A stretch of DNA of 12,842 nucleotides from Clostridia bacterium. Lineage in GTDB: Bacteria; Bacillota_A; Clostridia; Oscillospirales; CAG-272. Location of the stretch: positions 1 through 12,842 of the forward strand of contig JAGBSQ010000176.1 of the NCBI GenBank assembly GCA_017631775.1, read 5' to 3'. The position numbers and the translations under genes were made by a program. Within the stretch, counting starts at the first letter, position 1. The number at the start of each line of letters is the position of its first letter. Below, in pieces: positions 2,635-12,781 of the stretch. The notes beneath the pieces were generated by a model. It had not been told where the DNA came from, ran no database searches, and saw nothing but the letters and a program-made list of their open reading frames with translations.

Positions 2635-2663
2635 TTGATTTTTTGTGCGGGGTGTGGTATAAT
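2635..2663 (+). promoter_or_regulatory. Sigma-A-type promoter for the LysR gene
   Basis: A -35 box TTGATT (2635-2640), a 17-bp spacer and a perfect TATAAT -10 box (2658-2663) preceded by an extended -10 TG (2655-2656). Transcription would start near 2670, about 36 bases before the ATG at 2706. Confidence 0.85.
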
Positions 2664-2705
2664 AGGAGAGGCATGATTGTCACATCCCGGGGAGGAGACT
2701 GATTT

Positions 2706-3629
2706 ATGAATATTTTGCATGTGAAATACGCTGCCGAAGTTGCCAGAGTTGGCTCACTCAACAAGGCTGCCGAAACCCTTATGATCGCTCAGCCTAACCT
2801 CAGCCGCTCGATTAAGGAGCTTGAGGCTGACCTTGGCATTACCATTTTTCAACGCACCGCAAAAGGTATGATCCTCACCCCCGACGGCGAGGAATTTATG
2901 GACTATGCTCGCGATATCCTCAATCGCATTAGCAAGCTTGAACACTCCTACCGTGACGGCTCTCACAAAAAGCGCAAGTTTGGCATATCTGTTCCCCGCG
3001 CCTGCTACATCTCTGCCGCGTTTGCGGAGTTTTCAAAAAACATTGGTGAGGGCGACGTAGAAATTTATTACAAAGAGACCAACTCCAAAAAAACCATTCA
3101 AAAGGTTTTGGACAATGAATACAAGCTTGGCATCATTCGCTACTCCGAAGCATACGACAAGCATTACAAAACAATGCTTGAAGAAAAAGGCTTGAATTGC
3201 GAGCTTGTGGCAGAGTTCTCCTACGTTCTCATTATGAGCCGCGACAATCCCTTGGCATCTAAAGAGACAATCACCTACGATGATCTCTCCTCTTACATTG
3301 AGATTGCACACGCAGACCCTTACGTTCCCACGCTTTCTATGTCCAAGGTGTTCCGCGAGGAGCTCCCCGACAAGATCGGTCAGCGCATTTTCGTATTTGA
3401 GAGAGCAAGTCAGTTTGATCTGCTTTCCGAAAACCCCAAAACCTTTATGTGGGTCTCCTCTGCCTCTGACAAGGTACTTGACCGCTACAACCTTGTTCAA
3501 CGCGTTTGCGAAGGAAATAAAAAGATTTATAAGGACGTTTTGATCTATCACAAGGGCTACAAGCTCTCCAAGCTCGACAAGGATTTTACCACTTCTCTTT
3601 GCGAAGCAAGAAGAAAGTTTTTGAAATAA
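2706..3629 (+). CDS. LysR-family transcriptional regulator
   Basis: The 307-residue protein has the usual LysR length. The winged helix-turn-helix occupies about residues 3-63, with the typical pattern GSLNKAAETL, then QPNLSRSIKELEADLG and LF/IFQRT, followed by a linker helix to about 85. Residues 92-300 form the periplasmic-binding-protein-like effector domain. The start ATG at 2706 has GGAGGAG at 2691-2697, 8 bases upstream. The gene has its own promoter and terminator and lies immediately upstream of the rex operon in the same orientation. The effector and targets are not recognisable from sequence. The 15-bp-spaced sites at 3685-3729 are candidate binding sites, which would make it a second regulator of the downstream operon; that link is inference. 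Confidence 0.93.
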   Translation: MNILHVKYAAEVARVGSLNKAAETLMIAQPNLSRSIKELEADLGITIFQRTAKGMILTPDGEEFMDYARDILNRISKLEHSYRDGSHKKRKFGISVPRACYISAAFAEFSKNIGEGDVEIYYKETNSKKTIQKVLDNEYKLGIIRYSEAYDKHYKTMLEEKGLNCELVAEFSYVLIMSRDNPLASKETITYDDLSSYIEIAHADPYVPTLSMSKVFREELPDKIGQRIFVFERASQFDLLSENPKTFMWVSSASDKVLDRYNLVQRVCEGNKKIYKDVLIYHKGYKLSKLDKDFTTSLCEARRKFLK

Positions 3630-3649
3630 AATAACGGATATAAAATTTT

Positions 3650-3686
3650 GAGAATGGCTTTGCATTTTTGCAAGGCCATTTTCTTA
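3650..3686 (+). terminator. Terminator of the LysR gene
   Basis: A 15-bp stem with two G-U pairs (3650-3664 with 3669-3683) closes a TTTT loop, with core ATGGCTTTGCA/TGCAAGGCCAT. The T stretch is weak (TTTTCTTA) and partly inside the right arm. It starts 20 bases after the stop codon and abuts the operator array of the next unit. Confidence 0.8.
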
Positions 3687-3729
3687 TCGATACATGATAT
3701 ATCGATAGTGATAATACCGATATAACAAA
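3685..3729. promoter_or_regulatory. Array of three TAYCGATA sites with 15-bp period
   Basis: Units begin at 3685 (TATCGATACATGATA), 3700 (TATCGATAGTGATAA) and 3715 (TACCGATATAACAAA). The 8-base word TATCGATA is itself palindromic, so the array is both a direct and an inverted repeat. It lies at about -87 to -43 relative to the predicted rex start, where an activator or co-repressor would sit. Candidate binder: the LysR protein encoded just upstream. The sites do not match the Rex consensus. Confidence 0.6.
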
Positions 3730-3736
3730 TTGATTA

Positions 3737-3765
3737 TTGCAAAAAGCGAGAAGGTGTGTTAAAAT
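3737..3765 (+). promoter_or_regulatory. Predicted promoter of the rex-adhE-hyd operon
   Basis: A -35 box TTGCAA (3737-3742), a 17-bp spacer and a -10 box TAAAAT (3760-3765). Transcription would start near 3772, leaving about 20 bases of leader before the rex ATG. The -10 box is embedded in the Rex operator. Confidence 0.7.
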
Positions 3766-3772
3766 ATTAACA
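3757..3772. promoter_or_regulatory. Rex operator (ROP)
   Basis: TGTTAA-AATA-TTAACA is a perfect 6+4+6 inverted repeat. It matches the core of the clostridial Rex consensus TTGTTAA-N4-TTAACAA, differing only at the two outermost bases (G at 3756 and 3773). It overlaps the -10 box, the classic position for repression, and lies directly upstream of rex itself, implying autoregulation and NADH-responsive control of the downstream genes. Confidence 0.88.
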
Positions 3773-3792
3773 GAAAGACAAGGAGGTGGCAT

Positions 3793-4407
3793 ATGAACGG
3801 CTATTCCATTCCCAAAGCAACGCTTGGCAGACTTCCGCAATACCTGCAATACTTAAAGGAACTGTCTCAGGCAAACGTTTCTGCAACTGCAATTGCTAAG
3901 GGTCTCTCGCTTGGCGAGGTTCAGGTCCGCAAGGATCTTGCAGTGGTCAGCGGCGCGGGCAAGCCAAAGGTTGGTTACGAGCGCGAAAAGTTAATAGATG
4001 ACCTTGAACGTCACCTCGGATATGAGAGACTGACAAACGCGGTTCTCGTGGGGGCAGGCAAACTCGGTCGTGCGCTCCTCGATTACGACGGTTTTGAAGA
4101 GTTTGGCGTAAGAATCGTTGCCGGTTTTGATTGCAACGAGCAAGCACTCCCCATGGGCAAAAACACAAAAGCAATTTTACCTATTAAAGATATTGGCACT
4201 TACTGTGCACAAAACAACATAAAGCTCGGCATTGTGACCGTAGGTCAAGGTTCGGCTCAGCAGGTTTGCGACGCTCTCGTCTCCTGCGGCATTGAAGCCA
4301 TTTGGAACTTTGCCCCCTGCCCCCTTAAGGTTCCTGCAGGGGTTCTCTTAAAGCAGGAAAACCTCGCGCTCTCTCTTGCACACCTCAACAACCAAATCAG
4401 TAAATAA
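3793..4407 (+). CDS. rex: Redox-sensing transcriptional repressor Rex
   Basis: This 204-residue protein matches the usual Rex length. An N-terminal winged helix (about 1-80) includes the recognition-helix region LGEVQVRKDLA (40-50). The Rossmann domain has GAGKLGRAL (87-95) for the dinucleotide pyrophosphate and Asp113 at the end of strand 2 (AGFD), which favours NAD(H). NFAPCPLKVP (172-181) is a further Rex signature, and a C-terminal domain-swap helix follows. Rex binds DNA when NAD+ is high and lets go when NADH rises. ATG 3793 has AGGAGGT at 3781-3787. A Rex operator sits in its promoter, and adhE, a classic Rex target, starts 22 bases downstream. Confidence 0.97.
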   Translation: MNGYSIPKATLGRLPQYLQYLKELSQANVSATAIAKGLSLGEVQVRKDLAVVSGAGKPKVGYEREKLIDDLERHLGYERLTNAVLVGAGKLGRALLDYDGFEEFGVRIVAGFDCNEQALPMGKNTKAILPIKDIGTYCAQNNIKLGIVTVGQGSAQQVCDALVSCGIEAIWNFAPCPLKVPAGVLLKQENLALSLAHLNNQISK

Positions 4408-4429
4408 TTTCCCGGAGGGTATATACATT

Positions 4430-7126
4430 ATGGAAACCAAACAGTATCAGATCGTAGACAGCGTCGAAGCACTACACAGCGCCATCGCTCGTGTAAGAGC
4501 CGCACAAAAGGTATTTGCAACCTACACCCAAGAGCAGGTTGACAAAATCTTTTTGGCAGCCGCTTCTGCTGCTGACAAGGCAAGAATCAGCCTTGCAAAG
4601 CAAGCTGTTGCCGAAACCGGCATGGGCATTGTGGAAGACAAGGTAATCAAAAACCACTATGCCGCCGAGTACATCTACAACGCATACAAGGAAACCAAAA
4701 CCTGTGGCGTAATTGAAGAAGACAAGGCATTCGGCATTACCAAGATCGCAGAACCCATTGGTGTTGTTGCGGCAGTTATTCCCACAACCAACCCCACCTC
4801 TACCGCAATCTTTAAGTGCCTGCTCGCACTCAAAACCCGCAATGCTATTATTATCCGCCCTCACCCCAGAGCAAAGAACTGCACCATTGCAGATGCAAAG
4901 CACATTCTCGAAGCAGCAGTTGCAGCAGGCGCTCCCGAAGGCATCATCGATTGGATCGACGTTCCCTCACTTGAGATGACCAACACGGTTATGAAGGAGG
5001 CAGACATCATCCTTGCAACCGGTGGCCCCGGCATGGTTAAGGCAGCTTACTCCTCGGGCAAGCCTGCTCTCGGTGTAGGCGCCGGCAACACTCCCGCAAT
5101 CATCGATGAGAGCGCAAACATCCTTTTGGCTGTCAGCTCCATCATTCACTCCAAAACCTTCGATAACGGTATGATCTGCGCATCTGAGCAATCCGTTATC
5201 GTTCACGAAAACATCTACGACACCGTTAAGGCTGAATTTGCCGCACGCGGTTGCTACTTCCTCAATCCTCAAGAGACCGAAAAGGTTCGCAAGACCATCC
5301 TCATCAACGGCGCACTCAATGCAAAGATCGTTGGTCAAAAGGCTGTTCGCATTGCTGAGCTCGCAGGCGTTACCGTTCCCGCAGGCACCAAGATCCTCAT
5401 CGGTGAGGTTGAAAGCGTAGACCTCTCTGAGGAATTCGCACACGAAAAGCTCTCCCCCGTTCTCGCTATGTACAAGGTCAAGAGCTTTGAAGAAGCACTT
5501 GACAAAGCAGACAAGCTCGTTGAAGACGGCGGCTTCGGTCACACCTCCTCCCTCTACATCAACGAAGTAACCGAAAAAGAAAAGCTCGCAGCATACGCGG
5601 CAAGAATGAGAACCTGCCGCATCCTCGTTAACACCCCCTCCGCTCACGGCGGTATCGGCGACCTTTACAACTTCAAGCTTGCCCCCTCCCTTACCTTGGG
5701 TTGCGGCTCTTGGGGCGGTAACAGTGTATCCGAAAACGTAGGTGTTAAGCACCTGCTCAACATTAAGACAGTAGCAGAGAGGAGAGAAAATATGCTTTGG
5801 TTCAGAGCACCTGAAAAGATCTATATTAAAAAGGGTTGCCTCCCCGTAGCTCTCGACGAACTGAGAACTGTTAGAGGCGCAAAAAAAGCGTTTATCGTAA
5901 CCGATACCTTCCTTTATCAAAACGGCTACACCAAGCCGATTACCGATAAGCTGGACGAAATGGGCATTCAACACACCACATTCTTTAACGTTCAGCCCGA
6001 CCCCACCCTTGCAAACGCAACCGAGGGTGCGGCTCAAATGAGAGCATTCCAACCCGACACCATCATCGCTCTTGGCGGTGGCTCCGCAATGGACGCAGCA
6101 AAGATCATGTGGGTCCTCTACGAGCATCCCGAAGCAGACTTTATGGATATGGCAATGCGCTTTATCGATATCCGTAAGAGAGTTTACACCTTCCCCAAGA
6201 TGGGCGAAAAGGCATACTTCATTGCTGTTCCCACCTCTGCAGGTACCGGCTCCGAGGTAACTCCCTTTGCCGTTATCACCGACGAAAAGACCGGTGTTAA
6301 GTATCCCCTTGCAGACTACGAGCTCCTGCCCAACATGGCAATCATCGATACCGACTTCCATATGTCCGCTCCTCGCGGTCTGACTGCAGCTTCCGGTATT
6401 GACGCAGTTACCCACGCAGTTGAAGCTTACGTTGCAATGCTTGCAACCGACTACACCGACGGTCTTGCACTCCAAGCGCTCAAGAACATCTTTAAGTATC
6501 TGCCCCGCGCTTATGAGAACGGTCAGGTTGACGTTGAAGCACGCGAAAAGATGGCAAACGCCGCTACCATTGCAGGTATGGCATTTGCAAACGCATTCCT
6601 TGGCATCTGCCACTCCATGGCCCACAAGCTCGGTGCTTTCCACCACCTGCCTCACGGCGTTGCAAACGCCTTGATGATTGAAGAAGTTATTCGCTTCAAT
6701 GCAAGCGAAGCTCCCACAAAAATGGGTACCTTCTCTCAATACGATCATCCCCACACCCTTGCTCGCTATGCTGAAATTGCAGACGCTCTCGGCCTTGGCG
6801 GCAACACCGAAGAAGAAAAGCTCGAAAACCTTATCAAGGCAATCAACAACCTCAAGGCTCGCGTTGGTATTAAGGAAACCATTAAGGACTACGGCATTGA
6901 CGAGGCAGACTTCATCGCTCGTCTTGACGACATGGTTGAGCAAGCATTTGATGACCAATGCACCGGTGCAAACCCCCGTTACCCACTGATGAGCGAGCTC
7001 AAGCAAATGTACCTCAACGCTTACTACGGCAAGCACTTTGTTGAGGAAAAGATGCCCGCAAAGAACCTTGACGTTGCTACTCCCGACGCCATCAAGGCTC
7101 CCTATCGCAAGGGCAAAAAAGCCTAA
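4430..7126 (+). CDS. adhE: Bifunctional acetaldehyde/alcohol dehydrogenase AdhE
   Basis: The enzyme reduces acetyl-CoA to acetaldehyde and then ethanol with two NADH. The 898 residues compare with 891 in Escherichia coli. The N-terminal aldehyde dehydrogenase domain (about 1-445) has GVGAGN (215-220) and catalytic Cys250 in NGMICASEQ. The C-terminal iron alcohol dehydrogenase domain (about 460-870) has GGGS (549-552) and iron ligands Asp658, His662, His728 and His742, which fit the E. coli ligands with a constant offset. The start is ATG 4430, with GGAGGG at 4414-4419; an in-frame ATG at 4376 lies inside rex and is rejected. AdhE proteins usually assemble into spirosomes. A purine-rich stretch before Met455 in the linker resembles an internal ribosome site. 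It is the second gene of the Rex-controlled unit. Confidence 0.97.
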   Translation: METKQYQIVDSVEALHSAIARVRAAQKVFATYTQEQVDKIFLAAASAADKARISLAKQAVAETGMGIVEDKVIKNHYAAEYIYNAYKETKTCGVIEEDKAFGITKIAEPIGVVAAVIPTTNPTSTAIFKCLLALKTRNAIIIRPHPRAKNCTIADAKHILEAAVAAGAPEGIIDWIDVPSLEMTNTVMKEADIILATGGPGMVKAAYSSGKPALGVGAGNTPAIIDESANILLAVSSIIHSKTFDNGMICASEQSVIVHENIYDTVKAEFAARGCYFLNPQETEKVRKTILINGALNAKIVGQKAVRIAELAGVTVPAGTKILIGEVESVDLSEEFAHEKLSPVLAMYKVKSFEEALDKADKLVEDGGFGHTSSLYINEVTEKEKLAAYAARMRTCRILVNTPSAHGGIGDLYNFKLAPSLTLGCGSWGGNSVSENVGVKHLLNIKTVAERRENMLWFRAPEKIYIKKGCLPVALDELRTVRGAKKAFIVTDTFLYQNGYTKPITDKLDEMGIQHTTFFNVQPDPTLANATEGAAQMRAFQPDTIIALGGGSAMDAAKIMWVLYEHPEADFMDMAMRFIDIRKRVYTFPKMGEKAYFIAVPTSAGTGSEVTPFAVITDEKTGVKYPLADYELLPNMAIIDTDFHMSAPRGLTAASGIDAVTHAVEAYVAMLATDYTDGLALQALKNIFKYLPRAYENGQVDVEAREKMANAATIAGMAFANAFLGICHSMAHKLGAFHHLPHGVANALMIEEVIRFNASEAPTKMGTFSQYDHPHTLARYAEIADALGLGGNTEEEKLENLIKAINNLKARVGIKETIKDYGIDEADFIARLDDMVEQAFDDQCTGANPRYPLMSELKQMYLNAYYGKHFVEEKMPAKNLDVATPDAIKAPYRKGKKA
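5780..5794 (+). promoter_or_regulatory. Possible internal ribosome site and start within adhE
   Basis: AGGAG at 5780-5784 (inside AGAGGAGAG) is followed after 7 bases by in-frame ATG 5792 (Met455), exactly at the linker between the two domains. Initiation here would give a 444-residue stand-alone iron alcohol dehydrogenase. The Arg codons AGG-AGA forming it lie in a linker that is also conserved at protein level, so it may be coincidence. Confidence 0.3.
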
Positions 7127-7144
7127 TTCAAGGAGGACATTACC

Positions 7145-7894
7145 ATGAATCTTGATAGAGTAATTGCAGTAAGAAATAATAAGACCATCTACCGCGATGG
7201 CGACAGATGCATTAAGGTATTCAGCAAAGAATACTCCAAGGCTGACGTACTCAACGAGGCCCTCAACCAAGCAAGAATCGAAGAGACCGGCCTCAACATT
7301 CCCAAGATCCTTGAGGTTACCATGATCGATGGTAAGTGGGCGATCGTTTCCGAGTTCATCAAGGGCAAAACCTTGGCTCAACTGATGGAAGAAGACTCTG
7401 AGAGAAAAGAAGAATACATCAATCTCTTGGTAGACCTTCAAATCGGTGTTCACTCCAAGACCTGTCCCCTTTTGAATAAGCTTAAGGACAAAATGAACAG
7501 AAAGATCTCTCAAACCGATCTGGATGCAACCACCCGTTATGACCTGCACACCCGTCTTGAGAGCATGCCCAAGCACAACAAGGTATGCCACGGTGACTTT
7601 AACCCCTCCAACATTATTGTTGCCGAGGATGGAACACCTTACATTCTCGACTGGTCTCATGCAACACAAGGCAATGCATCTGCCGACGTAGCACGTACCT
7701 ACCTGCTCTTCTGGCTCAACGGTGACGTTGAAGGTGCCGAAGCGTACCTGAACACCTTCTGCAAAAAGAGCGACACCGCAAAGCAATACGTTCAAAAATG
7801 GATGCCCATTGTAGCCGCTTCTCAATCGGTTAAGGGCAACGAAAAGGAACGCGAGCTTTTGATGAGCTGGGTCAGCGTTGTCGATTACCAATAA
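7145..7894 (+). CDS. APH/choline-kinase-fold phosphotransferase of the hydS operon
   Basis: This 249-residue protein has the compact kinase fold of the aminoglycoside phosphotransferase (APH) family. The likely ATP-binding lysine is Lys24 (CIKVF). The hinge is near VSEFIKGKTL (68-77). The catalytic loop is CHGDFNPSN (148-156), with Asp151 as base and Asn156 as metal ligand, and ILDW (167-170) supplies the metal-binding Asp169. This HGD...DW pattern is that of APH and choline kinases, not the HRD...DFG pattern of Hanks-type Ser/Thr kinases. AGGAGG at 7131-7136 sits 8 bases before ATG 7145, and adhE ends 18 bases upstream. A gene at this place in Ruminococcus albus 7 was described as a Ser/Thr protein kinase. 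Resistance to aminoglycosides is unlikely given the context; the substrate, protein or small molecule, is unknown. Confidence 0.82.
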   Translation: MNLDRVIAVRNNKTIYRDGDRCIKVFSKEYSKADVLNEALNQARIEETGLNIPKILEVTMIDGKWAIVSEFIKGKTLAQLMEEDSERKEEYINLLVDLQIGVHSKTCPLLNKLKDKMNRKISQTDLDATTRYDLHTRLESMPKHNKVCHGDFNPSNIIVAEDGTPYILDWSHATQGNASADVARTYLLFWLNGDVEGAEAYLNTFCKKSDTAKQYVQKWMPIVAASQSVKGNEKERELLMSWVSVVDYQ

Positions 7895-7912
7895 TTGATT
7901 ACACTTTCGCAA

Positions 7913-7935
7913 GGCGGGGGAATTTTTCCCCCGCC
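7913..7935. other. Strong GC-rich hairpin without T tail, inside the operon
   Basis: GGCGGGGGAA (7913-7922) pairs perfectly with TTCCCCCGCC (7926-7935) around a three-base loop. No T-run follows on either strand, so a classical terminator is unlikely. It lies in the only sizeable gap of the operon (7895-7974), between the kinase gene and the first ferredoxin gene, and could be a processing, mRNA-stability or partial-attenuation element. No convincing promoter is seen in this gap. Confidence 0.8.
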
Positions 7936-7974
7936 GATACCCCTAATTTATAGAATATTGTGAGGTAAAACAAA

Positions 7975-8217
7975 ATGCTTAAAATTACAGTTTGTATCGG
8001 TAGCTCCTGCCACATCAAAGGCTCTCGTCAAGTAGTAGAGCAGCTGCAACGTTTGGTTGCCGAAAACAACCTTGGCGACAAAGTAGAGCTCAGCGGCACA
8101 TTTTGCATGGGCAAATGCCAGCTTGGCGTTTGCGTAACGGTAAACGATACCTTCCACTCCGTTACTCCCGAAACAGTAGGCGAGTTCTTCGCAAACGAAG
8201 TATTGGCAAAGGTGTAA
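7975..8217 (+). CDS. Thioredoxin-like [2Fe-2S] ferredoxin (NuoE-type domain), first copy
   Basis: The 80-residue protein is a single thioredoxin-fold [2Fe-2S] domain as in NuoE/HydC subunits. The cluster ligands would be Cys7, Cys12, Cys44 and Cys48 (C-x4-C-x31-C-x3-C), within CIGSSCHIKGS and GTFCMGKC. An extra Cys53 is present. No NADH-binding partner (NuoF-like) is encoded nearby, so it probably passes electrons to or from HydS, HydA2 or a trans partner in the cytoplasm. TGAGGT at 7961-7966 sits 8 bases before ATG 7975. A paralogue begins 4 bases after its stop. Small proteins of this kind accompany PAS-type hydrogenase clusters, for example the hfs cluster of Thermoanaerobacterium as I recall it. 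Confidence 0.88.
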   Translation: MLKITVCIGSSCHIKGSRQVVEQLQRLVAENNLGDKVELSGTFCMGKCQLGVCVTVNDTFHSVTPETVGEFFANEVLAKV

Positions 8218-8221
8218 GATC

Positions 8222-8485
8222 ATGTTGTTTGTTCAAATTTGTGTGGGTTCTTCCTGCTACCTCAAAGGGTCGGCAGATCTTGTAGAACTGTTTGAAAGTT
8301 CGATCAAAGAATATAACATCGAGGATGAGGTTGTACTTTCCGGTAGCTTTTGCATCGGCAAGTGCAACCGCGTCGGCGTTACTGTGCAGATCAACGATGA
8401 CGTCCACGTAGGTGTTACAAGAGAGAATTTTAGAGAATTTTTCAAGAAAAACATTCTTGACGTATTAGAAAATGAAAGGAAGTGA
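8222..8485 (+). CDS. Thioredoxin-like [2Fe-2S] ferredoxin (NuoE-type domain), second copy
   Basis: An 87-residue paralogue of the preceding protein: in an ungapped alignment I count 24 identical residues in the first 48. The ligands fall at the same positions (Cys7, Cys12, Cys44, Cys48), in CVGSSCYLKGS and GSFCIGKC, but Cys53 is absent and the C-terminal half has diverged, ending in a charged tail. The pair looks like an old tandem duplication with specialisation rather than redundancy. ATG 8222 follows the previous stop by 4 bases, with a modest AAAGGTG (8208-8214) inside the upstream gene, which suggests translational coupling. Its stop lies 5 bases before the hydS start. Confidence 0.87.
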   Translation: MLFVQICVGSSCYLKGSADLVELFESSIKEYNIEDEVVLSGSFCIGKCNRVGVTVQINDDVHVGVTRENFREFFKKNILDVLENERK

Positions 8486-8490
8486 CGAAT

Positions 8491-10170
8491 ATGGCTAACT
8501 GTTTAACACTTAAAAAATCAAACTGCAAAAACTGCTACAAGTGTATTCGTCACTGCCCCGTAAAGGCAATTCGCTTTTCGGGCAACCAGGCACACATCAT
8601 TGGCAATGAGTGCATTCTTTGCGGACATTGCTTTGTTGTTTGCCCCCAAAACGCAAAAGAGATTGTTGACGGCACCGAAAAGGCGCGCGTGCTTTTGCAA
8701 AGCGGTGACCCCGTTGTGGTCAGCTTGGCTCCCTCGTTTATTGCAAACTACAAGGGCGTTGGCATTGAATCGATGCGCAAAGCTCTCAAAAAGCTCGGCT
8801 TTTTTGACGTAGAGGAAACCGCGATCGGTGCAACCATCGTCAAAACCGAATACGAGCGTATGCTGCGTGAGGAAGACAGAGATATCGTCATTTCCTCTTG
8901 CTGTCACTCCATCAACCTGCTCATCCAAAAGCAGTTCCCCGCTCTTTTGCAATACCTTGCTAACGTAATGTCGCCCATGCAGGCACATTGCGACGATATC
9001 AAAAAGAGAATCCCCAACGCAAAGACCGTATTCATCGGCCCCTGCGTTGCAAAAAAAGATGAGGCTGAATACTACGAAGGCATTGTAGACGCCGTTCTCA
9101 CCTTTGAAGAATTGACCAACTGGTTCAAGGCAGAAGGCATTGAGTTGGAAAAGGAAATGGACAGCTCCCCCGAGAGCCGTGCACGCTTCTTCCCCACCAC
9201 CGGCGGCGTACTCAAGACCATGGCACAAGACGCTCCCGGCTTTACCTACCTCGCTCTTGACGGTGTTGAAAACTGTATTGCAGCACTCAAGAACATTGAG
9301 AACGGAAACGTTCACAAATGCTTTATTGAAATGTCGGCGTGTGTTGGCAGCTGTGTTGGCGGCCCCGTTATGGAAAAATACCATATGTCCGACCCCGTAA
9401 GAGATTACATCACCATCGCGCAATATGCAGGCGAGCGCGACTTTGCCGTAGAGCAACCCGCTCACGAGACCCTGAAGAAGAACTTCTCCATGATCGAGCG
9501 CAAATTGCCGCTGCCCAGCGATATGGAGATCATGTCTGTCCTCCGTCAAATGGGCAAATTCAAGCCCTCGGACGAGCTCAACTGCGGCTCTTGCGGCTAC
9601 AACTCCTGCCGTGAAAAGGCAATTGCCATCATTCAAGGCAAGGCCGAAATTTCGATGTGTCTGCCCTACCTCAAGGACAAGGCAGAAAGCTTCTCCGAAA
9701 CCATTGTTAACAATACTCCCGACGGTCTTATCGTTCTTAACGAAAACCTCGAGGTTCAACAAATTAACAATGCGGCACGCAAAATCATGAACATTCGCGC
9801 AGCCTCCGACGTTCTCGGCGAGCCCGTTATCCGTATTCTTGACCCCACCGCGTTCATTCAAGTCAGAAACAGCGGCAGAACCGTGCGCGACCAACGTACC
9901 TACCTTGCCGAGTACAAAAAGTACGTTAAGCAAACCGTTGTTTACGATCCCGATTCGCGTATGCTCATTGGTATTATGCGCGACATTACCGACGCTGAGT
10001 TTGATAGAGAAAAGAAAGCGCGCATCAACAAGCAAACCGTTGAGGTAGCCGACACCGTTGTTGAAAAGCAAATGAGAATCGTTCAAGAGATCGCATCTTT
10101 GTTGGGCGAGACCGCCGCAGAGACCAAGATCGCACTCACAAAACTGAAGGAGTCTATTGGCGATGAATGA
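8491..10170 (+). CDS. hydS: Sensory [FeFe]-hydrogenase HydS (group C) with PAS domain
   Basis: The 559 residues hold, in order: a 2[4Fe-4S] ferredoxin (Cys12/15/18/22 and Cys41/44/47/51); an H-cluster domain with SSCCHSI (ligand Cys138), GPCVAKKDE (Cys185) and MSACVGSC (Cys284, Cys288); an extra Fe-S domain (Cys365/368/373/390, PF04060-like); a PAS domain (about 400-500); and a helical tail (501-559) with no kinase or other output domain. Against Clostridium pasteurianum hydrogenase I, proton-relay positions appear as Tyr121, Met124 and Ala157, while Cys137 is kept. All this suits a slow, H2- or redox-sensing protein. The start is taken as ATG 8491, 8 bases after GGAAG (8478-8482); a GTG at 8482 overlapping the previous stop is possible but less well placed. 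It overlaps the phosphatase gene by 8 bases. Confidence 0.92.
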   Translation: MANCLTLKKSNCKNCYKCIRHCPVKAIRFSGNQAHIIGNECILCGHCFVVCPQNAKEIVDGTEKARVLLQSGDPVVVSLAPSFIANYKGVGIESMRKALKKLGFFDVEETAIGATIVKTEYERMLREEDRDIVISSCCHSINLLIQKQFPALLQYLANVMSPMQAHCDDIKKRIPNAKTVFIGPCVAKKDEAEYYEGIVDAVLTFEELTNWFKAEGIELEKEMDSSPESRARFFPTTGGVLKTMAQDAPGFTYLALDGVENCIAALKNIENGNVHKCFIEMSACVGSCVGGPVMEKYHMSDPVRDYITIAQYAGERDFAVEQPAHETLKKNFSMIERKLPLPSDMEIMSVLRQMGKFKPSDELNCGSCGYNSCREKAIAIIQGKAEISMCLPYLKDKAESFSETIVNNTPDGLIVLNENLEVQQINNAARKIMNIRAASDVLGEPVIRILDPTAFIQVRNSGRTVRDQRTYLAEYKKYVKQTVVYDPDSRMLIGIMRDITDAEFDREKKARINKQTVEVADTVVEKQMRIVQEIASLLGETAAETKIALTKLKESIGDE

Positions 10171-11335
10171 TTTGTGTGCAGATATCGGATATAAAAGCAT
10201 TAACCACGTTGGCGAAGAGCTTTGCGGTGACCACGTAGACGTTGTGGAAGAAAACGAAAATTCCACAGTCATCGTTTTGGCGGACGGTCTCGGCTCGGGT
10301 GTTAAGGCGAGCATCCTCTCCACCCTCACCTCCAAGATCATCTCCACCATGATGGCAGCAGGCCTCCCCATTGAGGAGTGCGTCTCTACCATTGCAGGTG
10401 CTCTGCCCGTGTGTTCGGTGCGCGGCGTGGCATACTCCACGTTTACCATTATTCACCTTTTGAATAATGAAGTTGCCGAGATCATTCAGTACGATAATCC
10501 GCAGGTCATTATCATTCGCAATTTCGAGATCTACGATTATCCCAAGACCGAAATGCATATCGGCGGCAAGAAAATATACAAATCCACCATCAGACTGCAA
10601 GAGGATGACGTCTTTATCGCAATGAGCGACGGTTGCCCTCACGCAGGCATGGGTGGCAAATATAACTTTGGTTGGAAAAGAGAGGACATTGCAGGATATA
10701 TGCAAGCCTTGGTAGCCGGCGGCTACACCGCCAAAAACCTTTCTACAATGTTGGTTGACGAGTGCGATAACCTCTACGGTCACAAGCCGGGTGATGACAC
10801 CACAGCCTGCGTTGTAAAAATTAGAAAGAGAGAGCCGATGAACATCCTCTTCGGTCCTCCCTCCAACCGTGACGATGCCAACCGCATGATGTCCCTCTTC
10901 TTCTCCAAGGAAGGCAAACACATCATTTGCGGCGGCACCACCTCTTCTATCGCGGCAAAATACCTTGGCAAGCCCGTGCGCGCGAGCCTCAGCTTTGAGC
11001 GCAGCGACATTCCCCCCATCGCTCACATCGAGGGCGTTGACCTGGTTACCGAGGGCGTTATTACCATGAACCGCGTAATTGAATACGCCAAGGATTACCT
11101 CGGCGAAAACGCGCGGTACGAAGAATGGAACTTTAAAAAAGACGGCGCATCGCTGATCAGTCGTCTGCTCTTTGAAGAAGCCACCGACATCAACTTTTAC
11201 GTGGGCAAAGCGATCAACCCCGCCCACCAAAACCCTGACCTGCCCATTAACTTTAACATCAAGATGAATCTTGTTTCGGAGCTTTCTACGTGTTTAAAAA
11301 AAATGGGTAAGCGTATTAAGGTAAGTTATTTCTAA
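10163..11335 (+). CDS. SpoIIE/PP2C-type protein phosphatase linked to HydS
   Basis: The 390-residue protein starts with a SpoIIE-like PPM phosphatase domain (about 1-225). Metal-binding acidic residues are Asp23 (CGD), Asp41 in ADGLGSG, Asp156 in MSDG and Asp211-Asp212 in PGDDTT. Such enzymes remove phosphate from Ser or Thr with two Mn or Mg ions. Residues 226-390 are a second domain that I do not recognise, with FGPP (230-233) and CGGTTSS (256-262). ATG 10163 lies within the 3' end of hydS (8-base overlap) with AAGGAG at 10147-10152; a TTG at 10157 is an alternative start. The overlap implies coupled synthesis with HydS, so the phosphatase is the best candidate for its output partner. PAS-type [FeFe]-hydrogenases linked to a phosphatase form a recognised class (group C3). 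Confidence 0.88.
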   Translation: MNDLCADIGYKSINHVGEELCGDHVDVVEENENSTVIVLADGLGSGVKASILSTLTSKIISTMMAAGLPIEECVSTIAGALPVCSVRGVAYSTFTIIHLLNNEVAEIIQYDNPQVIIIRNFEIYDYPKTEMHIGGKKIYKSTIRLQEDDVFIAMSDGCPHAGMGGKYNFGWKREDIAGYMQALVAGGYTAKNLSTMLVDECDNLYGHKPGDDTTACVVKIRKREPMNILFGPPSNRDDANRMMSLFFSKEGKHIICGGTTSSIAAKYLGKPVRASLSFERSDIPPIAHIEGVDLVTEGVITMNRVIEYAKDYLGENARYEEWNFKKDGASLISRLLFEEATDINFYVGKAINPAHQNPDLPINFNIKMNLVSELSTCLKKMGKRIKVSYF

Positions 11336-11350
11336 TGAAGGAGTTAAAAA

Positions 11351-12781
11351 ATGCGTAAATTTGATACAAAGGTACAGCATTTGAAATATAAGGTTTTGCG
11401 CGAGGTTGCTCGCCTGGCATGGGAAAACAAGCTTTTGGAAAACGTAATGGACATTCCCCAAAAGCTTGCCCCCGGCAAGGTGCCCACCATGCGTTGCTGT
11501 GTCTATAAAGAAAGAGCCATTCTCGGTGAACGCGTTAAGATTGCTATGGGTGGCGACAAAAACAACCCCAACGTAATTGAGGTCATTGACATCGCCTGCG
11601 ATGAATGCCCCGTTGGCGGTTACGAGGTTACCAACGCTTGCCGCGGTTGCTTGGCACACCGTTGCGAGGACGTTTGTAAGTTTGGCGCACTCACCTTTGA
11701 TAGCAATCACGTAGCACACATCGACAAATCCAAATGCCGTGAGTGCGGCGCGTGTGCAAAGGTTTGCCCCTACACCGCTATCGTTAGCCGCAAGCGCCCC
11801 TGCCAAAACGCTTGCAAGGTAAAAGCGATCGCTATGAACGAAGAAAAGGCCGCTACCATTGATAACTCCAAATGCATTCAATGCGGTGCTTGCGTATATC
11901 AATGTCCCTTTGGCGCAATCAGCGATAAATCCTATATTTTGAACGCGATCGACATTCTCAAAAAGAGCGAGCGCAACACACAAAATGACGGTTGCAGAGT
12001 ATATGCCGTTGTTGCACCCTCTATTTCCAGCCAGTTCTCTTATGCAAAGCTCGGTCAAGTCATTACCGGCTTGAAGAAGCTCGGCTTCCATGACGTTATC
12101 GAGGCTGCTCTCGGTGCCGATATGGTTGCTATGGCAGAGGCAAAGGAGCTCTCCGAAAAGGGACTCCTCACCAGCTCCTGCTGCCCTGCATTCGTTCAAT
12201 ACATCAAATCCACCTTCCCGCAGCTTGTTGAGCACATCTCGCACAATATGTCCCCCATGACAGTGCTTGCAAAGTATATTAAGGAGACCACTCCCGGCGC
12301 AAAGGTCATCTTTATCGGTCCTTGCACCGCAAAGAAGGCGGAGGCACAGCTCGAATCTGTTAAGCCTTACGTAGACACCGTGCTCACCTTTGAGGAGCTC
12401 CAAGCGCTCTTTGACAGCCGCGACTTTGACCTTTCCACCTTTGAGGAAGGCGTTCTTGACAATGCCTCCTACTTTGGACGTATCTTTGCACGCAGCGGCG
12501 GTCTTACCGATGCAGCAGTGCAGGCAATGAAGGAACAAAACATCAACTTTGAGATCAAGCCCGTTGTTTGTGACGGTATTGAGGCTTGCCGTATGGCTCT
12601 GCTCAAATTGAGCAAGGGTGTGCTTGACGGCAACTTTATTGAGGGTATGGCTTGTATTGGCGGTTGTATTGCCGGTGCAGGATGCCTCACCCACGGTGAA
12701 AAGAACAAGGCAGAAGTCGATAAATACGGTCGCGAAGCACTTGAAAAGAATATCACCGATGCAATTTCACTTTTGAAATAA
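11351..12781 (+). CDS. hydA2: [FeFe]-hydrogenase catalytic protein, group B-like (HydA2)
   Basis: This 476-residue enzyme likely makes H2 from protons and reduced ferredoxin. The N terminus has 16 cysteines between 83 and 185 (83, 86, 97, 100, 105, 109, 129, 132, 135, 139, 151, 155, 175, 178, 181, 185), enough for four [4Fe-4S] clusters. The H-cluster domain has SSCCPAF (ligand Cys278, relay Cys277), GPCTAKKAE (Cys325) and EGMACIGGC (Cys435, Cys439). By ungapped alignment to C. pasteurianum hydrogenase I, the proton-path positions are kept as Glu263, Glu266 and Ser297. Gly in place of Met before PC in the second motif points away from group A. No NAD- or flavin-binding domain is present, so it is not the bifurcating HydABC type. 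AAGGAG (11338-11343) precedes ATG 11351 by 7 bases; it follows the phosphatase by 15 bases. Confidence 0.93.
   Translation: MRKFDTKVQHLKYKVLREVARLAWENKLLENVMDIPQKLAPGKVPTMRCCVYKERAILGERVKIAMGGDKNNPNVIEVIDIACDECPVGGYEVTNACRGCLAHRCEDVCKFGALTFDSNHVAHIDKSKCRECGACAKVCPYTAIVSRKRPCQNACKVKAIAMNEEKAATIDNSKCIQCGACVYQCPFGAISDKSYILNAIDILKKSERNTQNDGCRVYAVVAPSISSQFSYAKLGQVITGLKKLGFHDVIEAALGADMVAMAEAKELSEKGLLTSSCCPAFVQYIKSTFPQLVEHISHNMSPMTVLAKYIKETTPGAKVIFIGPCTAKKAEAQLESVKPYVDTVLTFEELQALFDSRDFDLSTFEEGVLDNASYFGRIFARSGGLTDAAVQAMKEQNINFEIKPVVCDGIEACRMALLKLSKGVLDGNFIEGMACIGGCIAGAGCLTHGEKNKAEVDKYGREALEKNITDAISLLK

Follow-up and report, generated by a model that had tools for sequence, protein, structure and literature searches.

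We analysed a 12,842-nucleotide (nt) stretch of a Clostridia bacterium genome, JAGBSQ010000176.1 (the window, by which we mean this whole stretch), in which eight tightly packed genes, all on the + strand between positions 3793 and 12781, run in the order rex, adhE, a kinase-fold gene, two ferredoxin genes, hydS, a SpoIIE-type phosphatase gene and hydA2. This cluster is probably best explained, taken as a whole, as two joined electron-disposal modules, in which the sensory [FeFe] hydrogenase HydS steers the phosphatase encoded beside it and the kinase-fold protein (hereafter the kinase) works mainly with AdhE, the bifunctional acetaldehyde/alcohol dehydrogenase. The pressure of H2 sets the output of gut and rumen fermenters, ethanol versus acetate plus H2, and the H2 released feeds methanogens; in the literature examined we found no identified H2 sensor chain for that choice. 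Our analysis points to the phosphatase as a plausible output of HydS, and cautions that a neighbouring kinase should not be assumed to be its general counterpart. An earlier note on this DNA had proposed that HydS steers the phosphatase and that the kinase opposes it; the sensor–phosphatase half of that proposal emerges strengthened, the kinase–phosphatase half weakened.

The gene for HydS (8482–10170; Fe_hyd_lg_C 171.9 bits) overlaps that for the SpoIIE/PPM-type phosphatase (10163–11335; PF07228 50.2 bits, cut-off 25) by exactly the 8 bases that had been claimed, the phosphatase ATG lying at 10163 and the hydS stop ending at 10170. Among 297 genomes drawn evenly from the window's order (the order sample, with 86 HydS places and 115 kinase places), a phosphatase gene lies within 500 nt downstream of HydS in 80 of the 86 places, 48 of these 80 pairs having the exact spacing of the window. 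As for the six exceptions, one (G028) has a phosphatase start that is cut by the contig end, another (G027) has a divergent, 25%-identical PPM directly downstream of HydS, in two (G123 and G222) the contig runs out at HydS itself, and in G102 and G228 a different open frame follows HydS, that of G102 giving no Pfam hit when scanned. Across a second set of 224 genomes from the phylum (the phylum sample) HydS occurs in 70, and the best 30 of these 70 loci all have the phosphatase directly downstream, in one case split in two frames. Close loci with room for it carry a downstream phosphatase in 78 of 79 cases, the exception (L075) having a copy elsewhere in its genome. In one reading of neighbourhoods by open frames, genes were accepted only where similarity to the window proteins backs them, some of the frames picked being antisense, and a joint count of phosphatase and HydA2 loci was left unused because the HydA2 query also matches HydS and inflates it. 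No fusion of HydS to the phosphatase was seen, though no exhaustive search was made.

Fusions to other outputs do occur among longer relatives of HydS, of which the phylum sample holds 11; of the six examined, three carry HisKA and HATPase domains after the PAS domain and three (L241, L243 and L244) carry sigma-54 activator and helix-turn-helix domains. Because HydS-type modules are fused to such varied outputs, one sensor type appears to drive different outputs, that of the window being a separate phosphatase. Judged from sequence, the phosphatase occupies the position of an output domain and, as a near-constant partner, is a plausible output of HydS. The sigma-54-fused modules would act as transcription activators that respond to H2 within a single protein; the table of HydDB classes (PMC5037454) has histidine-kinase, chemotactic and phosphatase entries and none for sigma-54. 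Adjacency, overlap, the fused outputs elsewhere and published genetics of hfsB and hfsC, described below, all favour the earlier view of HydS as a sensor with no built-in output domain and with the phosphatase as its partner.

HydS itself comprises 2x4Fe-4S, H-cluster and FeS domains, then a PAS domain (PF00989, residues 406–502, 31.8 bits, cut-off 22.6) and a tail in which a Pfam scan gives no output domain. The H-cluster cysteines C141, C188, C287 and C291 are kept in 96 of 97 aligned HydS rows, the remaining row being a gap. On alignment to HydA1, the residues at CpI positions M353 and M497 are replaced by G186 and S285 (glycine in 96/97 and serine in 91/97 rows), and replacement of both is the sensory criterion given, with HydS of T. 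maritima as an example, in PMC10055695. A third position, C299, retains its cysteine as C140 (93 of 97 rows), so that a common but not universal sensory replacement is absent here; according to the same text 17% of sensory enzymes keep this cysteine, and on the alignment the retention of C140 would be a minority variant, giving no exclusion from the sensory group. HydS is a probable H2-sensing protein, with H2 as its presumed ligand. A highly conserved part of the protein lies beyond the PAS domain: across 72 sequences, tail residues 525–562 show 90% identity, against 78% for the H domain and 70% for PAS, and in seven distant HydS proteins the corresponding values are 64% for the tail, 41% for the hydrogenase domain and 29% for PAS.

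The phosphatase consists of a PPM domain (residues 1–222), whose metal-site aspartates D41, D156, D211 and D212 are kept in 86/86 sequences, and a 165-residue C-terminal region. A structural model of modest quality (predicted local distance difference test, pLDDT, 64) lies closest to SpoIIE (5mqh) and RsbU–RsbW (3ke6). Prediction is poor across the C-terminal region, which has no Pfam match and draws weak profile hits from solved structures (best E 0.13); among the 120 protein hits listed for it, the named ones are called 'hypothetical protein' or 'serine/threonine-protein phosphatase, partial', and we take them for truncated copies.

The kinase (7145–7894) matches PF01636 at 52.7 bits (cut-off 23.2), with K24, E38, H149, D151, N156 and D169 intact. 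Its score against the Ser/Thr protein kinase model PF00069 is 22.0 bits, under the cut-off of 31.7, and we rejected the identification as a Ser/Thr protein kinase on that ground. The RIO-type model PF01163 scores 40.1 bits (cut-off 22); no RIO or Bud32 chain appears among the 50 structural matches listed, which is no evidence of absence, and a RIO-type kinase may still be the right identity. The listed structures comprise kinases of the APH, choline/ethanolamine, homoserine and related antibiotic types, together with one lanthipeptide enzyme complex. Choline kinase is the best sequence match in the PDB. The predicted fold is of the APH/choline-kinase type and resembles small-molecule kinases, the class of substrate being likewise a prediction; the protein differs from TIGR02172-related phosphotransferases of this type in falling below the cut-off of that model (64.7 against 228.2) and in having a gene that usually adjoins adhE.

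That adjacency proved to be separable from HydS. In the order sample the kinase directly follows adhE (4430–7126 in the window; NF010378 1394 bits, cut-off 951), within 600 nt, at 70 of the 115 kinase places, and 35 of the 67 genomes with an adhE–kinase pair have no HydS match, as judged at E 1e-100. Starting from AdhE proteins of at least 60% identity, 73 of 104 places have a kinase no more than 600 nt away. We also assembled 80 loci related to the window, of which 51 with 3 kilobases (kb) upstream were tallied: AdhE and kinase occur together in 31, AdhE alone in 0, the kinase alone in 4 and neither in 16, the other 29 loci, with less than 3 kb upstream, being set aside (10 with both, 6 with the kinase only, 13 with neither). 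A pair was found in one record from Collinsella, which belongs to another phylum and in which the HydS matches are weak and partial. We found no earlier description of the adhE–kinase pair in the open-licence literature, and this separate unit is the new, if modest, result here: a system of two genes, simple and open to test, that occurs in two phyla. It could account for a published hint of post-transcriptional AdhE regulation (PMC5707799).

All 27 kinase copies in joined adhE–HydS arrangements keep their catalytic residues, and of 90 adhE- or HydS-linked kinase rows four deviate catalytically (D151N in L284, serine at E38 in L283, and G150C in L156 and L171). A clade of seven kinases (L147–L152 and L284) has the catalytic aspartate changed to asparagine; six lie in unrelated surroundings, the seventh next to adhE. 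In a tree of 105 kinases, a subset of the 115 places, adhE-linked copies fall in both halves and the joined adhE–HydS label requires 16 changes, at least seven of them forced by well-supported branches; the bootstrap had not converged, several long branches may be misplaced, and contig ends blur some of the labels. On this tree, the adhE–HydS combination appears to have arisen or been lost repeatedly. A bolder statement, that AdhE has a dedicated APH-fold kinase which forms a two-gene unit in Clostridia and Collinsella, phosphorylates AdhE or its ligand, sets ethanol flux post-translationally and was repeatedly joined to the HydS–phosphatase module in some rumen and hindgut clostridia, we regard as rather doubtful. 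As a side observation, in two loci (L145 and L159) the gene immediately after the kinase encodes a HydA2-like hydrogenase, with no HydS in the stretch.

Putative regulatory DNA follows the same boundary. A Rex-box-like operator (GTGTTAAAATATTAACAG, 3756–3773, + strand) lies 19 nt before the start codon of rex (3793–4407; NF003994 229 bits, cut-off 130), overlaps a -10-like hexamer and has two mismatches to what we take to be the Rex-box consensus. The whole window holds three such sites against 0.93 expected, and 14 of 200 shuffles reach three; because this count alone is not significant, the putative operator rests on its position and conservation. With up to three mismatches allowed and the 200 nt before the first gene of each cluster searched, sites are found in 22 of 30 loci with adhE and 3 of 25 without, a regrouping by adhE presence of loci that are related, so that the counts are not independent. 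Sorted by first gene, sites precede adhE in 16/18 loci, rex in 7/20 and, in adhE-free loci, ferredoxin in 2/17; they are found upstream of HydA2 in 1/80, of the phosphatase in 0/80 and of HydS in 1/78. On these counts Rex boxes appear to track adhE, and regulation to divide along the same two modules. Between the modules, a GC-rich hairpin (7913–7935, + strand) with no T run after it occupies the gap between the kinase and the first ferredoxin, and may serve in RNA processing or stability. Folding of the entire gap gives -25.2 kcal/mol; among 51 related gaps, 12 with differing sequences reach -19 kcal/mol or below and many others are just 10–24 nt long, these being raw energies without shuffle control. 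An Rfam search of the window gave nothing above gathering scores.

The complete arrangement has a known counterpart. On plasmid pRUMAL01 of the rumen bacterium Ruminococcus albus 7 (NC_014824.1, RUMAL_RS17345 to RS17385) the order LysR–rex–adhE–phosphotransferase–Fd–Fd–HydS–SpoIIE–HydA2 is identical to that of the window, a gene-for-gene match for the similar transcription unit that the earlier note had mentioned, with identities of 69% for HydS, 76% for the kinase, 80% for the phosphatase, 75% for AdhE and 48% for Rex. The R. albus copy differs in its plasmid location, in a kinase–ferredoxin gap of 17 nt and in having no Rex-box match, where the window has a Rex-box-like site and a hairpin-bearing gap. 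The gene content and order of the window also recur, with gaps, in many of the 80 related loci, the closest of which come from Clostridia genomes, most of them from herbivore hindguts; given this recurrence and the identical order in R. albus, the layout is not due to chance.

Part of our reading is already in print. PMC6776011 reports that the eight-gene hydrogenase/AdhE/HydS cluster of R. albus drops 111-fold when the bacterium is co-cultured with an H2 consumer, and proposes that the group C hydrogenase, with its phosphatase subunit, senses H2; Zheng et al. 2014, as quoted in PMC5707799, proposed a signal from HydS to an adjacent Ser/Thr kinase. HydDB group C3 (PMC5037454) takes in sensory [FeFe] hydrogenases whose genes accompany one for a serine/threonine phosphatase. 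The window shows the same pairing, adds adhE, rex and the kinase, and fits C3 by phosphatase linkage. Since R. albus H2 sensing, the HydS–kinase signal and the C3 class had all been published, the idea of the earlier note comes close to existing proposals, and the sensor–phosphatase reading is not new. That note had known of no shown target or signalling chain; the cluster and an H2-sensing chain were in print from 2014–2019 onwards. A further likeness, by description and not by sequence, is to hfsABCD of Thermoanaerobacterium saccharolyticum, where hfsB encodes a PAS hydrogenase, hfsC a phosphatase and hfsD a HydA2-like hydrogenase; adhE lies outside the four-gene operon as described, and in the passages available no kinase is mentioned for it. 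Loss of hfsB raises adhE transcripts, ethanol and hydrogenase activity; neither adhE nor ethanol goes up when hfsC or hfsD is lost, and intact hfsC and hfsD are required for the high-ethanol state (PMC5707799).

We suggest the following mechanism. A first module, consisting of the Rex box, adhE and the kinase, here with rex, would answer NADH, Rex leaving its operator at high NADH; a second, consisting of the two [2Fe-2S] ferredoxins, HydS, the phosphatase and HydA2, would answer H2 or the ferredoxin state. HydS would bind H2 at the H-cluster, and the resulting change would pass through PAS and the conserved C-terminal tail to the phosphatase. From the hfs genetics and the 111-fold effect in R. 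albus, we infer that HydS may restrain the phosphatase at low H2 and release it at high H2. The released phosphatase would then dephosphorylate a regulator, likely encoded outside the cluster, allowing adhE and hydA2 to be expressed, while the kinase would serve mainly AdhE and not as the dedicated opponent of the phosphatase.

A number of observations weigh against this mechanism. The direction of control is carried over by analogy from the hfs genetics of another genus, in which hfsD is needed besides hfsC and in which rex is more strongly expressed as ethanol goes up, the reverse of what simple Rex control would give (PMC5707799). The cluster encodes no target for the phosphatase. Part of the HydS tail is retained in two HydS proteins without a recognisable adjoining phosphatase; we therefore make no claim that the tail is a dock specific to the phosphatase, and it may be a general output helix. 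In R. albus no Rex box is found at up to three mismatches in the 200 nt before rex or adhE, and rex is absent from 19 of the 31 AdhE–kinase loci. One genome (G016) carries an AdhE of 70% identity and no kinase match. At 13 of the 115 kinase places the kinase precedes HydS without a detected adhE, presence being scored by match cut-offs that count an adhE cut by the contig end as absent, which applies to at least one of the 13 (G261, with an adhE fragment at its contig end); the kinase is therefore not a partner of AdhE only. Within the order sample a kinase match occurs in 51 of 82 genomes with HydS against 46 of 215 others, and all three genomes with the kinase in the phylum sample also carry HydS.

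The last of these observations bear on the switch that the earlier note had in mind, in which a phosphate placed by the kinase on a protein (AdhE, HydA2 or some regulator) would be the one that the phosphatase, steered by HydS, takes off again. It gains further from the kinase lying within 5 kb of HydS at 39 of the 86 HydS places in the order sample, from the recurrence of the joined arrangement, catalytic residues intact, on many branches of the kinase tree, and from an APH-type fold that is compatible with protein substrates. We nevertheless consider the switch quite unlikely. Kinase and phosphatase do co-occur within the order, and the refuting condition of the earlier note, a lack of co-occurrence across genomes, does not hold. 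Phylum-wide, HydS is found in 70 and the kinase in 3 of the 224 genomes, counts made at different E-value cut-offs; of 16 genomes in which both adhE and the kinase are missing from the HydS locus, 12 have no kinase match anywhere. On the order and phylum counts together, in which the kinase keeps company with AdhE more often than with the phosphatase, we rejected a generally conserved kinase–phosphatase pair, and an opposing role for the kinase is further undermined by its adjacency to adhE where HydS is missing, by its likeness to small-molecule kinases and by its sub-cut-off protein kinase score. The frequent place behind adhE, the Collinsella record and the mainly small-molecule-kinase structural neighbours among the 50 listed, with choline kinase as best PDB sequence match, argue instead for a metabolic enzyme on the AdhE side, which would phosphorylate an acetaldehyde- or ethanol-linked small molecule, or AdhE, and have no part in H2 signalling. 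This is a real possibility, if one we lean slightly against: the kinase also stands beside HydS, or before a HydA2-like hydrogenase gene, without adhE, and 32 of its 115 places adjoin neither adhE nor HydS, some with an altered catalytic aspartate.

How the phosphatase might act admits a more specific version of the last step of our preferred mechanism, namely partner switching, in which the enzyme would dephosphorylate a STAS anti-anti-sigma protein phosphorylated by an RsbW-type HATPase kinase and thereby free a sigma factor or other regulator, the kinase of the cluster being unrelated. PAS-controlled PPM phosphatases with partner-switching logic exist, RsbP among them, and the window enzyme shares with SpoIIE, RsbU and RsbP the PPM domain and intact metal aspartates and has its closest solved folds in this group (SpoIIE and RsbU–RsbW); it differs in having a separately encoded sensor and the extra 165-residue C-terminal region. 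HATPase_c_2 (PF13581) genes are present in all 80 genomes searched, but equally in the 40 with HydS and the 40 without, and we rejected their co-occurrence as a pointer to the target; nor did a Pfam scan find STAS or HATPase domains among nine window proteins. We hold partner switching to be possible but on the doubtful side. Another alternative dispenses with signalling altogether, making HydS a slow hydrogenase for redox buffering in an operon controlled by Rex and LysR only. A Rex box does precede the adhE module, where the LysR gene is conserved, yet PAS and a phosphatase accompany HydS in nearly every locus, signalling outputs are fused to it elsewhere, few HydS clusters that lack adhE have a Rex box (3/25), and deletion of hfsB raised, rather than lowered, hydrogenase activity and adhE (PMC5707799); we find this account very improbable.

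The remaining genes agree with the eight-gene content originally described, which coordinates and profile scores bear out throughout. Thioredoxin-like [2Fe-2S] ferredoxins 1 (7975–8217; PF01257 35.7 bits) and 2 (8222–8485; PF01257 32.2 bits) precede hydS, and HydA2 (11351–12781) is a monomeric ferredoxin-type [FeFe] hydrogenase. HydA2 fits the group B1 model TIGR04105 (571.5 bits, cut-off 450); PMC6776011 assigns the enzyme of the R. albus cluster to group A1. Directly upstream of the cluster lies a LysR-family regulator gene (2706–3629, + strand; HTH_1 63.6 bits), which the earlier note had passed over and which is found in 26 of the 31 related loci with AdhE and kinase and in 2 of the 16 with neither. 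Of the eight genes, rex is the one most often missing, being present in 12 of those 31.

Several relatives carry insertions. An L-lactate dehydrogenase gene stands between the phosphatase gene and hydA2 in L157 (9189–10136; 332 bits, TIGR01771 cut-off 303.55), and in five of the 80 close loci (L004, L008, L013, L018 and L030) an unscanned open frame with a similar start occupies the same place. Between the kinase and HydS, L170 has NuoE-like and NuoF-like genes, confirmed by Pfam, and L171 has NuoE-like and NuoF-like genes plus an extra hydrogenase-like frame; by its gene content this insert looks like a captured hydABC set. In L155, NfnA-like and NfnB-like genes (2638–4923) lie directly upstream of the kinase and the HydS–phosphatase pair. 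At the other end of the window, positions 1–2382 encode an open-ended protein of repeated Cys-rich units, probably a surface protein and unrelated to the operon.

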